Positions 1,178 to 38,293 of a stretch of 64,000 nt of DNA are shown piece after piece. The translations under genes were made by a program, and so were the position numbers. The notes beneath the pieces are model-generated. The model had not been told where the DNA came from. It did not search any database and worked only from the letters and a program-made list of their open reading frames with translations. Numbering within the stretch: position 1 is the stretch's first letter; every line of letters starts with the position of its first letter. The stretch comes from Rhodobacter sp. (lineage in GTDB: Bacteria > Pseudomonadota > Alphaproteobacteria > Rhodobacterales > Rhodobacteraceae). The DNA is taken from positions 62,001-126,000 of the forward strand of contig JASJDP010000014.1 in NCBI GenBank assembly GCA_030065095.1, given 5' to 3'.

Positions 1178-1786
1178 CTATTCCGCCGCGATGGCGTGGC
1201 TGGCCTGTGCGATATCCATCTTCATCGCCGAATAGCGACGCCCGTCGCTTGGATCCTGCCAAACCTCGCCAACACGGTCGACCGGATAGCCGACCTGGCG
1301 CAGGACGCGCAGCATCGACAGCGACGACATCGCCCGCAACTCGCAGCAGCCCTGCGATTGAACGATGTCGATGCAGCCGTCGCAGATAAGCTGCAGGCAT
1401 CGGCGGCGGTCGCCCGGATTGACCAGTCCGTCGGACATGACGAGGCGCGTCATCTCCCACACATAGGGCGAAACCACGCCGCTCGGCATCACGTCGCTCG
1501 GGATGCTGTCCAGCTTTCCCTCGGAGGCGTCGCGCATCATGTAGCTGTGGTTGCCCCATTGAGAGCTGGTCGCCATCACCCGAGCGCCTCCCAGCACGGC
1601 GCCATTCGACACGACAAGCGAATACCACGCCAGCGGGTTGTCGTACTGGTCCATCTCATATGATTCGTTGTGCGGGACGTCCCACTGCAGCTGATCCACG
1701 AAGAATCGCTTGCGCAACTTTAGGTAGTTAAAAAAGGCTGATCCGTGCTCGTGAAGCGATGACAAGTCAAAAGTGATATTCCGCAT
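1178..1786 (-). CDS. luxI: LuxI-type N-acyl-homoserine lactone synthase
   Basis: Builds an acyl-homoserine lactone signal from SAM and an acyl-ACP (or acyl-CoA) in the cytoplasm. All invariant LuxI residues can be placed: R25, F29, W35 (LQWDV), D46 and D49 (YEMDQYDNP), R69 (GGARVM), E111 and R114 (WEMTRLVM). At 202 aa it has normal family length. A strong Shine-Dalgarno (AAGGAGAG) lies just before the ATG at 1786. It lies downstream of luxR in the same direction, and a 22-bp dyad lies about 75 bp before its start, which suggests LuxR-controlled positive feedback. The acyl chain made cannot be read from the sequence. Confidence 0.95.
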   Translation of the reverse strand: MRNITFDLSSLHEHGSAFFNYLKLRKRFFVDQLQWDVPHNESYEMDQYDNPLAWYSLVVSNGAVLGGARVMATSSQWGNHSYMMRDASEGKLDSIPSDVMPSGVVSPYVWEMTRLVMSDGLVNPGDRRRCLQLICDGCIDIVQSQGCCELRAMSSLSMLRVLRQVGYPVDRVGEVWQDPSDGRRYSAMKMDIAQASHAIAAE

Positions 1787-1896: not shown

Positions 1897-2505
1897 TCAG
1901 ATCAACCCGAAGGTCGTCGCCATGGTCGCGGCGTGGGTGCTGGTCTTGGCTTTCAGCTTGGTTTTGGCGTTTTTCAGGCGCTGCTTGACGGCGCCTTCCG
2001 AGACGCCGAGCAGATTCGCGATCTCTTTCATCAAAAGACCGTTCTTGACCATGCGCAAGGCCTCAAGCTCTGCCTTGGTCAAGTTCTTCGGCGGCACCAT
2101 CATGCGATGCATGTCACCAAGCGTCCGGGTCAGTTCGGCGATCTCCGCATCGGAAAATTCCCGGTCCGAACGCGCGAACGAGCCGAAACTGCGCTGCTGG
2201 CCTTCGCCCATATCGGCATGGCAGATCGCCACGCCGAAGTTCAAGCCGAAAAACTTCGCCTGTTCCAGAACCCCGCGGGGATCGTCGATGGAAATAGCGC
2301 TCCAGCGTGTGGCGCCGACATTCTGGTACATCCAGTGCATCACCGGGTCGGACAGCACCAGACCTTGGCTGGTATAGCGATCGATCCACTTTTTCGGGAG
2401 GGTCTTCTTTTCGTACACGGGAAACACGAAACCCATGCGCAGAGCGAGAAAGTAGCCGGAGGGAGACAACTCAGACAATTTGTTGGTATGATCGTCAATG
2501 GTCAT
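1897..2505 (-). CDS. luxR: LuxR-family quorum-sensing transcription regulator
   Basis: Signal-dependent regulator expected to bind the AHL made by the neighbouring luxI. An N-terminal autoinducer-binding domain (about residues 10-130) keeps the six conserved positions: W40, Y44, D53-P54, W68 and G91. A GerE/LuxR helix-turn-helix follows (about 142-185, LTKAELEALRMVKNG to GVSEGAVKQRLKNA). At 202 aa it is shorter than classical LuxR (about 240), mainly in the N-terminal domain. It is transcribed towards luxI with the candidate lux box between them. The divergent gene at 2629 is a close relative without the helix-turn-helix. Confidence 0.93.
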   Translation of the reverse strand: MTIDDHTNKLSELSPSGYFLALRMGFVFPVYEKKTLPKKWIDRYTSQGLVLSDPVMHWMYQNVGATRWSAISIDDPRGVLEQAKFFGLNFGVAICHADMGEGQQRSFGSFARSDREFSDAEIAELTRTLGDMHRMMVPPKNLTKAELEALRMVKNGLLMKEIANLLGVSEGAVKQRLKNAKTKLKAKTSTHAATMATTFGLI

Positions 2506-2628
2506 CGGTTGATGCGTCCCTACCTATGGTGCGGCCTTCGTGCTAACACCGCCCCAGAATCACTGCTTGCAAAAGAATAGGCATTCATATGGCTGTCCGC
2601 AACTTTATAGAGAGTTTGGGTTAATTTT

Positions 2629-3114
2629 GTGGATAATCGAACCAGTATAGCAACCCTTCTTGCCGATATCGACCAATTGACCCCGGGCGGCTTTGCAATT
2701 GGGCTGCATATCAGCTTTTCGGGCCCGACTTTCCTGTTCCAGACCTTTCCGCAGGATTGGGTGGATTACTATGCCAAGGAAGGGCTGCAACTGCGCGATC
2801 CGGCGATGCACTGGAGCTTTGCCAATTCTGGCTCGATCCGCTGGCGCGACCTTACCGACGACGACCCCGCCGACGTGATCGGCAAGGCGCGCGAACATGG
2901 GCTGCCCTATGGCATGACCATCTCGCTTCTCGACCAGCAGTCGCGCACCGTTGGCGGCTTCGCCCATCCCGAACGCGACTATCTGGATGTCGAGATCGAT
3001 CAGATCAAAGCACATCTGCTTGACCTGCACCGTGCAACCATAGGGGTATCGGTCCTGTCGGCCGACGACATGGCGGCGCTCAAACGCATGTCGATTCGTC
3101 TGTCGCACAGCTAA
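2629..3114 (+). CDS. LuxR-like autoinducer-binding protein lacking the DNA-binding domain
   Basis: A 161-aa protein that aligns with the neighbouring LuxR over the whole ligand-binding domain and keeps the same key residues (W44, Y48, D57-P58, W72, G95). It stops at LSADDMAALKRMSIRLSHS, where LuxR enters its helix-turn-helix, so it cannot bind DNA in the usual way. Only 40 bp separate its stop from the next gene and no HTH remnant is seen in any frame there, so this is not a simple frameshift. The start is GTG at 2629. It could sequester signal or form inactive mixed dimers with LuxR, as the truncated TraR homologue TrlR does; that role is inference. Confidence 0.85.
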   Translation: MDNRTSIATLLADIDQLTPGGFAIGLHISFSGPTFLFQTFPQDWVDYYAKEGLQLRDPAMHWSFANSGSIRWRDLTDDDPADVIGKAREHGLPYGMTISLLDQQSRTVGGFAHPERDYLDVEIDQIKAHLLDLHRATIGVSVLSADDMAALKRMSIRLSHS

Positions 3115-3154
3115 GCCGCTTTCGCCCGGGCCTTGGTGCGACTATATCGACGGC

Positions 3155-3598
3155 ATGTTCGCAGAATTCCTGAAACGTCTCACCCAGCCGGACCCCGAAC
3201 CGCTGCCCGACGCCGACGCGCGCCTGGCACTGGCCGCACTTCTGGTGCGCGTCGCGCGGTCGGACGGGTCCTATGACCACGAAGAGGTCGCCCGCATCGA
3301 CCGCATCCTGAGCAAGCGCTACGCACTGTCGCCGTTCGAAGCGGTGGAGTTGCGCCGCGATGCGGAACTGTTCGAAGAGGCCGCGCCGGACACGGTGCGC
3401 TTTACCCGCGCGATCAAGGACGCGGTGCCCTATGAGGAACGCGAGGGCGTGATCGAGGCGCTGTGGGACGTGGTCCTGGCCGATGGCGTGCGCGACCACG
3501 AGGAGGACGCGCTGCTGCGGCTGGTGGCCAATCTTCTGGGCATCAACGACCGCGATTCCGCACTGGCCCGGAAACGGGTCGAAAACGGCGGGGCATGA
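3155..3598 (+). CDS. TerB-like (tellurite resistance TerB family) protein
   Basis: Small acidic helical protein of 147 aa in the TerB/COG4103 family. It carries the duplicated pattern LLVRVARSDGSYDHEEVARI (residues about 30-50) and LWDVVLADGVRDHEEDALL (about 103-121), where acidic residues follow each ADG/SDG turn and probably bind a divalent metal. No signal peptide is seen, so it is probably cytoplasmic. The biochemical role of such stand-alone proteins is not established; tellurite resistance should not be assumed because the other ter genes are absent. Its stop overlaps the start of the next gene (ATGA), so the two are co-translated. Confidence 0.8.
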   Translation: MFAEFLKRLTQPDPEPLPDADARLALAALLVRVARSDGSYDHEEVARIDRILSKRYALSPFEAVELRRDAELFEEAAPDTVRFTRAIKDAVPYEEREGVIEALWDVVLADGVRDHEEDALLRLVANLLGINDRDSALARKRVENGGA

Positions 3599-4332
3599 TC
3601 GCCGGGCTGCCGATGTATGACCGGCCCGAGACGGCCGGCGCCCATGACGCGTATTGGCAGGCGATCCGCGACGCCCTTCGCGACAGGAACATCGCGGCAC
3701 CGGACGGGCTGAGCCGCGGCATCGATCCATGGACGCTGTGGCGGCGGAACGATCTGGTACTGGCCCAGACCTGCGGACTGCCCTACCGCGCCCGGCTGCA
3801 CGGCAAGGTCACGCTGCTGGGGACCCCGGATTTCGGCGTGCCGGACTGTCCGCCGGGATATTACCGGTCCGTGATCGTGGTGCGGGCCGAAGATCCCCGT
3901 ATCGCGGTCTCGGATCTCTCCGGCGCAAAGCTGGCCTATAACGACCCGCTGTCGCAATCGGGCTGGGCGGCGGTCCGGGCGCTCGGCCTGCCGTTCTCCG
4001 AAAAGATCCGGACCGGCAGCCATCGGCAAAGCGCCCGTGCCGTTGCCGCGGGCCGCGCCGACCTCGCCGGGATCGACGCCGTAACCTGGCGGTCGATGGG
4101 TGTTCACGATCCCGATCTCGCAGGCGCCTTGCGCGTCCTCGCCCGCACGCCGCCGACCCCGGGCCTGCCCTATATCTGCGCACCGGGCTTCGACGCCCGC
4201 GGGATCGCTGCCGCGATCGACGAGGCGCTGGACGGCCTGAACGCCTCGGTGCGCGACGTTCTCGGCCTTCGCGGTCTCGTCCGCATTCCGCCTGAAACCT
4301 ATCTCGAACAGCCCATTCCGGACGCACCCTGA
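3595..4332 (+). CDS. PhnD-like substrate-binding-fold protein
   Basis: A 245-aa protein of the phosphate/phosphite/phosphonate binding (PhnD-like, periplasmic-binding type 2) fold. It shows the typical run of PPGYYRSVIVV, DLSGAKLAYNDPLSQSGW, GSHRQSARAVAAGRADLAGI and a final PYICAPGF segment. No signal peptide or lipobox precedes the domain, so secretion is doubtful unless a start was missed; the longer upstream frame lies inside the terB-like gene and adds no leader. ATG at 3595 overlaps the preceding stop. No permease or ATPase of phosphonate type is adjacent. It may act as a soluble sensor of a small anion, but no function is assigned. Confidence 0.75.
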   Translation: MIAGLPMYDRPETAGAHDAYWQAIRDALRDRNIAAPDGLSRGIDPWTLWRRNDLVLAQTCGLPYRARLHGKVTLLGTPDFGVPDCPPGYYRSVIVVRAEDPRIAVSDLSGAKLAYNDPLSQSGWAAVRALGLPFSEKIRTGSHRQSARAVAAGRADLAGIDAVTWRSMGVHDPDLAGALRVLARTPPTPGLPYICAPGFDARGIAAAIDEALDGLNASVRDVLGLRGLVRIPPETYLEQPIPDAP

Positions 4333-37852: not shown

Positions 37853-38293
37853 TCAGTTGATGTTGGCCTCATCGGCCTGCCCTTGTCCGTTCAGCGTGCC
37901 CCAGCAATCCTGACCGTTAAAGGTCCAGCTCAGCGCACCTCCGTCATGAGAGAACGTGTAGGGCCCGTAATAGGTGCCCGGGCAGCTTGGCGTGGTGCTG
38001 TGGTAGTTCATCATCACGGTACAGTTGGCCAAGTCTATCACGCCCGTTCCTTCGCCGGACACGCCGCTGCTGGTGATGTATTTGCTGTGAATGTAATTGC
38101 CGCTTCGGGAAAAATACAGCGTGTTGTTAAAGACATAGTCCATACCGGCATGCGACCCGGCGGTATAGTTCGCGGTGTACTGGCCGTGATACATGCTGCC
38201 GACATCGCAGGATTGCGCCGCTGCGGCCCCCGCCCCCACGACGGTGGCGGTGGCAAGCGTGGCAGCAAGGCGGCTGAGATTGGCAAGTGGCAT
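37853..38293 (-). CDS. Secreted hypothetical protein, 146 aa
   Basis: No family recognised. It has a clear Sec signal (LSRLAATLATATVVGAGAAAA, cut before QSCD, residues named in two parts: LSRLAATLATATVV then GAGAAAA). The mature part is rich in Ser, Thr, Tyr, Asn and Gly with four Cys (in QSCDVGS, ANCTVMM, PSCPGTY, QDCWGTL), which may form two disulfides, and alternating polar/aromatic strands such as YTFSHDGGALSWTFNG. A beta-sandwich periplasmic or extracellular protein is likely. AAGGGAG precedes the ATG at 38293. The long open frame reaching 39241 on this strand is a shadow of the HAD gene. Confidence 0.75.
   Translation of the reverse strand: MPLANLSRLAATLATATVVGAGAAAAQSCDVGSMYHGQYTANYTAGSHAGMDYVFNNTLYFSRSGNYIHSKYITSSGVSGEGTGVIDLANCTVMMNYHSTTPSCPGTYYGPYTFSHDGGALSWTFNGQDCWGTLNGQGQADEANIN

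Follow-up and report, generated by a model that had tools for sequence, protein, structure and literature searches.

A short LuxR-type receptor without a DNA-binding domain, conserved beside luxR in Rhodobacter sp. and its relatives, as a probable member of the CerN family

LuxR-type proteins that have lost the helix-turn-helix (HTH) DNA-binding domain are already known: TrlR of Agrobacterium provides the precedent for an inhibitor of this kind (PMC13043044, PMC4338825), and a 2015 survey of LuxR solos reported proteins made of the autoinducer-binding domain (ABD) only, often encoded next to luxR genes, for which it suggested sequestration of the ligand or interaction with LuxR and called for further study (PMC4338825). 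The closest described system, CerN/CerM, was reported in 2024 in one species, Cereibacter sphaeroides (PMC11655674). There, CerM holds DNA without acyl-homoserine lactone (AHL), CerN pulls down CerM in an AHL-dependent manner, and CerN together with AHL weakens the binding of CerM to DNA in vitro and relieves CerM in an E. coli reporter. Loss of cerN or cerI severely cuts swimming unless cerM is lost too, a mutant lacking both cerI and cerN shows slight swimming, and the level of CerM protein is lower in a cerN mutant. The same report states that AHL relieves the negative effect of GtaR, that C. sphaeroides CerM carries W57F in its pocket, for which a low AHL affinity was proposed, and that conserved synteny was found for gtaR alone in a comparison of three genomes (PMC11655674). 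Here we describe a short luxR-type gene (2629-3114, forward strand) in a 64,000-nucleotide stretch of Rhodobacter sp. DNA (contig JASJDP010000014.1, positions 62,001 to 126,000), referred to as the window. The gene is divergent from a full-length luxR on the reverse strand, with luxI downstream of luxR on the same strand. It is part of a conserved pair, has an intact pocket and no DNA-binding domain, and shares its ancestry with CerN/CerM. By analogy with that system we consider it fairly likely that its product is a CerN-family AHL receptor that binds the adjacent LuxR and lifts it off DNA.

The open reading frame (ORF) of the short gene was confirmed as real. It encodes 161 amino acids from a GTG start codon that is common to its four closest relatives (loci L006 and L011-L013), and the product matches the Pfam family Autoind_bind at 60.2 bits (cut-off 23), with no GerE or other HTH match. 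The protein is thus a LuxR ligand-binding domain, and all six pocket residues (W44, Y48, D57, P58, W72 and G95) align with their counterparts in the neighbouring LuxR (W40, Y44, D53, P54, W68 and G91), which bears out the intact pocket noticed in an earlier sequence-only reading of this DNA. Overall the two proteins are 35% identical across 142 columns. The next ORF, at 3155, lies 40 bp further on. A search of all six frames of positions 2950-3700 detected no HTH, the top single stretch scoring -3.2 bits, compared with 125 bits for the window LuxR, a control that was itself part of the training set. The claim that no HTH remnant follows in the 40-bp gap therefore stood, and a frameshifted HTH downstream of the gene was rejected. 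That the protein ends where the HTH should begin needed refinement, since the domain is absent but residues 143-152 still align with the part of LuxR in which its first HTH helix begins.

AlphaFold2 modelled both proteins with high mean confidence (predicted local distance difference test, pLDDT: short protein, 92.7; window LuxR, 92.1). The closest solved structure to the short model was 5l09_A (Z 14.3, 139 residues, root-mean-square deviation 3.2), followed by LasR, RhlR, CepR2, SdiA, CviR and TraR, indicating that the model has the fold of solved LuxR-type ligand-binding domains; GAF domains match this fold too (Z 9.6-11). Residues 145-161 fall largely outside these matches. They were modelled as a helix (145-153), sitting where LuxR has its first HTH helix, and a strand (157-160), confidence being low for the last residues.

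To judge how widespread such genes are, we used a sample of 394 genomes of the family (Rhodobacteraceae) from 393 genera. The short protein found matches in at least 215 of them, many being full-length receptors. In the best 30 loci an HTH-less ORF was divergent from a full-length LuxR in every case and luxI was seen in 28, so the luxI-luxR-short gene order proposed from the sequence is kept in relatives. After 40 further regions had been added, mostly picked for short open frames and a few as full-length controls, these 70 loci held 63 short forms, 61 of them divergent from LuxR, one in tandem with it and one without LuxR in the stretch read. Verified short forms were present at no fewer than 76 loci in at least 73 of the 394 genomes. 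An independent count started from LuxR: 68 places in the 394 genomes, own genome included, matched the window LuxR at E <= 1e-50, and a short partner stood beside 65 of these (62 divergent, 3 tandem), leaving three alone; locus L101 was counted as divergent from its domain coordinates, the scripted 'convergent' label having come from a long frame starting far upstream. The luxI gene of the 65 paired loci was of the window type in 53 and cerI-like in one, and none lay in the stretch read in the other 11. Across the class, 289 genomes were searched with a profile built from 40 short forms; two matched, the own genome and one genome of the same family, but the cut-off (1e-15) was strict and may have missed distant short forms. 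A first scan of genome contigs with the window short protein gave no match.

CerM-type LuxR genes with no short partner in the stretch read were also encountered (L106, L109, L110 and L118) and offer natural controls. A divergent short/LuxR pair with no luxI annotated nearby is carried by a plasmid of Limimaricola variabilis (L098, NZ_CP139692.1), where both genes are annotated merely as 'autoinducer binding domain-containing protein'.

The ancestry of the short forms was examined in a tree of ligand-binding domains with 155 rows (72 short, 69 CerM-type and 14 GtaR-type), built by quick search with branch support from the Shimodaira-Hasegawa-like approximate likelihood ratio test (SH-aLRT). 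All 72 short forms, CerN of Cereibacter included, lie on one side of a single branch (SH-aLRT 93), and the GtaR-type (89) and CerM-type (99) groups are likewise each set apart by one branch. A repeat tree of 148 rows (68 short, 66 CerM-type), from which the C-terminal tail columns and four near-copy loci had been removed, gave the same grouping (short 92, GtaR-type 88, CerM-type 100). The short forms and the GtaR-type receptors come together on the opposite side of the CerM branch, and the window LuxR groups with CerM (99 and 100), apart from the neighbouring short form. These groupings come from an unrooted tree with many inner forks left open and from groups preassigned by profile scores and then checked by the tree, and the label 'GtaR-type' is an assignment from gene order and PMC11655674, not from a named GtaR sequence.

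Because the short and GtaR-type groups join opposite the CerM branch, the sequences are most simply explained by a single loss of the HTH on the GtaR side. The separation of the short branch from the CerM-type proteins also means that the short gene did not arise by shortening of the adjacent luxR. That it is a recently truncated copy of this luxR was rejected both from the tree and from the short orthologues in close relatives; full-length orthologues were looked for there and not found, the closest relatives being short too. Of the proposal that the gene is either a designed short form or an old deletion, and not a fresh frameshift, the part that holds is that it is old and maintained, whereas it is unlikely to have come from the neighbouring LuxR type by an old deletion, given that the short form groups with GtaR-type receptors in the tree.

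The pocket of the short forms is nearly invariant: W44, Y48, D57 and W72 are found in 68 of 68 sequences, P58 in 67 and G95 in 66, and it thus appears that ligand binding is under selection in these proteins. In the CerM-type partners (n = 66) the first pocket tryptophan varies in two and the second in three. T137 is present in all short forms and in 13 of the 14 GtaR-type proteins but is not conserved in the CerM type, while H134, at the end of the long helix that closes the ligand-binding domain, is kept in 62 of 68 short and 64 of 66 CerM-type sequences. The tail of the short forms is conserved to different degrees (L151 in 64, S155 in 45, T159 in 43 and H160 in 38 of 68). Pairwise distances at 47 loci were more strongly correlated between short form and LuxR (r 0.58) than between short form and LuxI (0.43) or LuxR and LuxI (0.30), although such correlations are weak evidence, since linkage and shared descent can account for part of them.

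The loci of Cereibacter and its relatives allow a direct comparison. At L064, L079 (Cereibacter johrii), L080 (Luteovulum azotoformans) and L081 (C. changlensis) the short gene is divergent from a CerM-type LuxR, beyond which come a CerR-type LuxR and LuxI. The L064 pair is 30% identical, close to the published figure of 31% (PMC11655674), and the window LuxR is 42% identical to C. johrii CerM. In L064, L079 and L080 the CerM-type protein has phenylalanine at the first pocket tryptophan, the change published for C. sphaeroides CerM (PMC11655674); among the 66 CerM-type rows only L064 and L080 do, L079 coming in addition to those rows, and the W57F type of change therefore marks part of Cereibacter and not the family. 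At L053, L056, L064, L070, L079-L082 and L085 the LuxI is of another subtype, scoring 42-58 bits against the window-type profile compared with 230-360 elsewhere, with the CerR-type LuxR in between, which looks like an exchange of the synthase in this branch.

Taken together, the window gene shares with the CerN family the six-residue pocket domain, the absence of an HTH, the CerM-type neighbour and, with moderate support (93, or 92 with the tail removed), an ancestry with CerN that excludes full-length LuxRs. On the model of CerN/CerM we propose that LuxI makes AHL while the neighbouring CerM-type LuxR would bind DNA without it; the short protein would bind AHL and then associate with LuxR via the ligand-binding domains of both, and this complex would be unable to hold DNA, so that the LuxR targets would switch as AHL accumulates. 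Sensing and DNA binding would in this way be split between two proteins expressed from one divergent promoter region, and the short protein would serve not as a brake but as the receptor through which the quorum signal is passed on. That the short protein binds AHL, pairs with LuxR when AHL is present and takes LuxR off DNA is in each case inferred from the studied pair. AHL-independent DNA binding is the likelier state of the window LuxR, because GtaR, which AHL relieves, and CerM, which holds DNA without AHL, are found one on each side of the main branch.

Several observations weigh against this proposal. The short protein is merely 35% identical to C. johrii CerN, and the support for the branch uniting all short forms (92-93) is moderate and below the mark of 95. 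The window LuxR retains the pocket tryptophan, W40, and may therefore sense AHL itself, which would make the division of labour less strict; the sequences leave room for both window proteins sensing AHL. The window pair has a directly linked luxI, whereas Cereibacter uses cerR-cerI, and in vitro AHL by itself lowered CerM-DNA binding somewhat, though less than with CerN (PMC11655674). Furthermore, the CerM site TNT(N5)AAGACA(N2)T given in that source was absent from the luxR-short spacer at up to one mismatch; in the whole window the pattern had a single one-mismatch match, distant at 38122, with 1.95 expected.

The sequence-only reading had suggested that the short protein acts on AHL or on LuxR dimers as a built-in brake on quorum sensing. 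An effect on LuxR at the protein level is still the best model, since CerN exerts one (PMC11655674), but the brake finds no support and its sign is probably wrong: the quorum response studied in C. sphaeroides requires CerN, and because loss of cerN mimics loss of the synthase gene cerI, CerN carries the quorum signal instead of damping it (PMC11655674). That proposal corresponds to a TrlR-like brake, in which DNA binding and activation by LuxR depend on AHL and the short form locks AHL-bound LuxR into dead heterodimers, damping or delaying quorum sensing. TrlR of Agrobacterium does act so (PMC11655674, PMC13043044, PMC4338825) and the pocket of the window LuxR is complete. We nevertheless regard this as unlikely, as the relatives that have been studied, one on each side of the tree, were reported to act without AHL, CerM being on DNA in its absence and GtaR being relieved by it, as cerN loss resembles AHL loss, which is the opposite sign (PMC11655674), and as TrlR is an 88% copy of TraR compared with 35% for the window pair.

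The short protein could instead stabilise its partner, either in a working heterodimer or by protecting LuxR from breakdown, and so raise LuxR activity in some conditions. The lower CerM level of the cerN mutant and the partial return of swimming in the cerI cerN double mutant (PMC11655674) agree with this, as does the retention of the long-helix end in both proteins (H134, see above), but CerN with AHL takes CerM off DNA in vitro and relieves it in the reporter (PMC11655674), and we hold the idea to be improbable. Slightly more improbable still is a mere AHL sink that soaks up the signal without contact to LuxR. Such a role was named as an option for ABD-only proteins (PMC4338825) and would suit a complete-pocket ligand-binding domain and nothing else; it leaves unexplained why 65 of 68 LuxR genes of one type have a short partner, including the 11 loci without luxI in the stretch read, and CerN binds CerM directly (PMC11655674). 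Finally, the missing HTH might mark a functionless, decaying relic of a full-length luxR, which we find scarcely credible in view of the open frames and near-invariant pocket of 68 short forms, their one shared branch and their shared tail.

The spacer between luxR and the short gene has a median length of about 127 bp (n = 64, near-copies dropped) and contains an 18-nt leader motif with the consensus GCAACCTTAAAGCGAGTG (11.7 bits compared with 6.3-6.7 in shuffled spacers). At 12 bits or more it was found in 34 of the 64 spacers on the short-gene side but in two on the luxR side; 26 of the 34 copies lie 8-14 nt from the short-gene start, and about half of the spacers have no clear copy. The window copy (Table 1) scored 23.6 bits, the next best 12.8, its own spacer being in the training set. 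A 17-nt core of the leader is identical in five genomes from four genera and occurs in the own genome as a single exact copy. The element may act in ribosome binding or in control at the RNA level. As a genome-wide operator it was rejected: the own genome held the element itself and one match with three mismatches, two in all compared with five for the reversed control, and it is therefore not a regulon site at that stringency. Palindromes in the spacers, taken from the luxR side, scored little above shuffled spacers (14 bp, 5.9 compared with 5.1-5.3; 13 bp, 6.1 compared with 4.7-5.0). An 18-bp palindrome run (8.1 compared with 5.3-5.7) was not accepted as an operator because its consensus resembles the leader element forced into symmetry, and promoter-like sites were not used, as they lay within or overlapped coding sequence or the leader.

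Similar sequences were observed at GtaR-type genes. GCAACYT, similar to the leader element, occurs shortly before the start codon of some of them (L075, L092), and at L075, L091, L092 and L094 the GtaR-type ORF starts directly after [GT]CAACYTRTCTAAAARGMC. At L075 and L091 this sequence contains an inverted repeat, TGTCT-AAAA-AGAC, which adjoins the GtaR-type start codon and is possibly an operator of these genes' own.

Table 1. Positions of the short receptor gene and associated features in the window
Feature	Coordinates	Strand	Details
Short LuxR-type receptor, probable CerN family, ligand-binding domain only	2629..3114	+	161 aa, GTG start
C-terminal tail, residues 143-161: first-HTH-helix remnant, then 'L..MS[IV]..TH' end typical of family	3055..3111	+	
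Divergent luxR/short promoter spacer, 123 bp	2506..2628	.	
Conserved leader element GCAACTTTATAGAGAGTT	2599..2616	+	12 nt upstream of short-gene start
Full-length CerM-type LuxR, ligand-binding domain and HTH, presumed partner	1897..2505	-	202 aa
LuxI-type AHL synthase	1178..1786	-	202 aa; Autoind_synth 47.1 bits

The window LuxR matches Autoind_bind at 47.9 bits and GerE at 36.6 bits. The own genome has four Autoind_bind matches, the short/LuxR pair included; the others are a 251-aa ORF adjoining a weak LuxI-like ORF (20 bits) and a 255-aa ORF with no luxI within the 3.4 kb read.

Since the putative sensor gene has a conserved leader of its own, its level may be under RNA-level control. A broader picture, which we put forward tentatively and at somewhat less than an even chance, is that in many bacteria of the family quorum sensing is shared out over the products of one divergent gene pair, where a GtaR-side receptor that lost its HTH once, in the distant past, is the AHL sensor and a LuxR that binds DNA independently of AHL the output, with the leader possibly setting the sensor level and thereby tuning the quorum threshold. 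CerN-type receptors would then be common in the quorum sensing of this family (at least 73 of the 394 sampled genomes), models with luxR and luxI alone would miss the likely receptor in these bacteria, and entries named merely 'autoinducer binding domain-containing protein' would gain a testable role. What is apparently new is that the short forms are distributed across the family with a single origin and are nearly always paired with a LuxR, and that a conserved 18-nt leader precedes the short gene. A single-origin family, a GtaR link and a near-obligate partner are not described in the available text of PMC4338825 or in the text and table of PMC3824088, and besides PMC11655674 and these two surveys no literature on CerN-type proteins as a family was apparent from titles and abstract beginnings among the matches listed.

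Compared with known systems, the short form is the same kind of gene as the ABD-only LuxRs of the 2015 survey (PMC4338825), and the window gene order is possibly the 'D topology' of Roseobacter with two luxR per luxI (PMC3824088, Table A1). Its nearest full-length relatives in the tree are of the GtaR (R. capsulatus) / LuxR1 (D. shibae) type. These keep the HTH, unlike the short form, which is neither full-length nor a DNA-binding protein by domain content, and their genes lie directly upstream of their own luxI on the same strand. TrlR is likewise a LuxR-type protein without a DNA-binding domain, able to form inactive dimers with its full-length relative TraR; it is, however, a truncated, nearly identical copy (88%) that blocks an AHL-dependent activator (PMC11655674), whereas the short protein is 35% identical to its neighbour and belongs to a separate branch. 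The closest likeness is to CerN/CerM (PMC11655674), where an HTH-less LuxR with a full pocket also stands beside a full-length LuxR, on the same branch as the short form and as a divergent pair in the Cereibacter loci (L064, L079-L081); the next genes there encode a CerR-type LuxR and LuxI, while the window has a linked luxI of another subtype.
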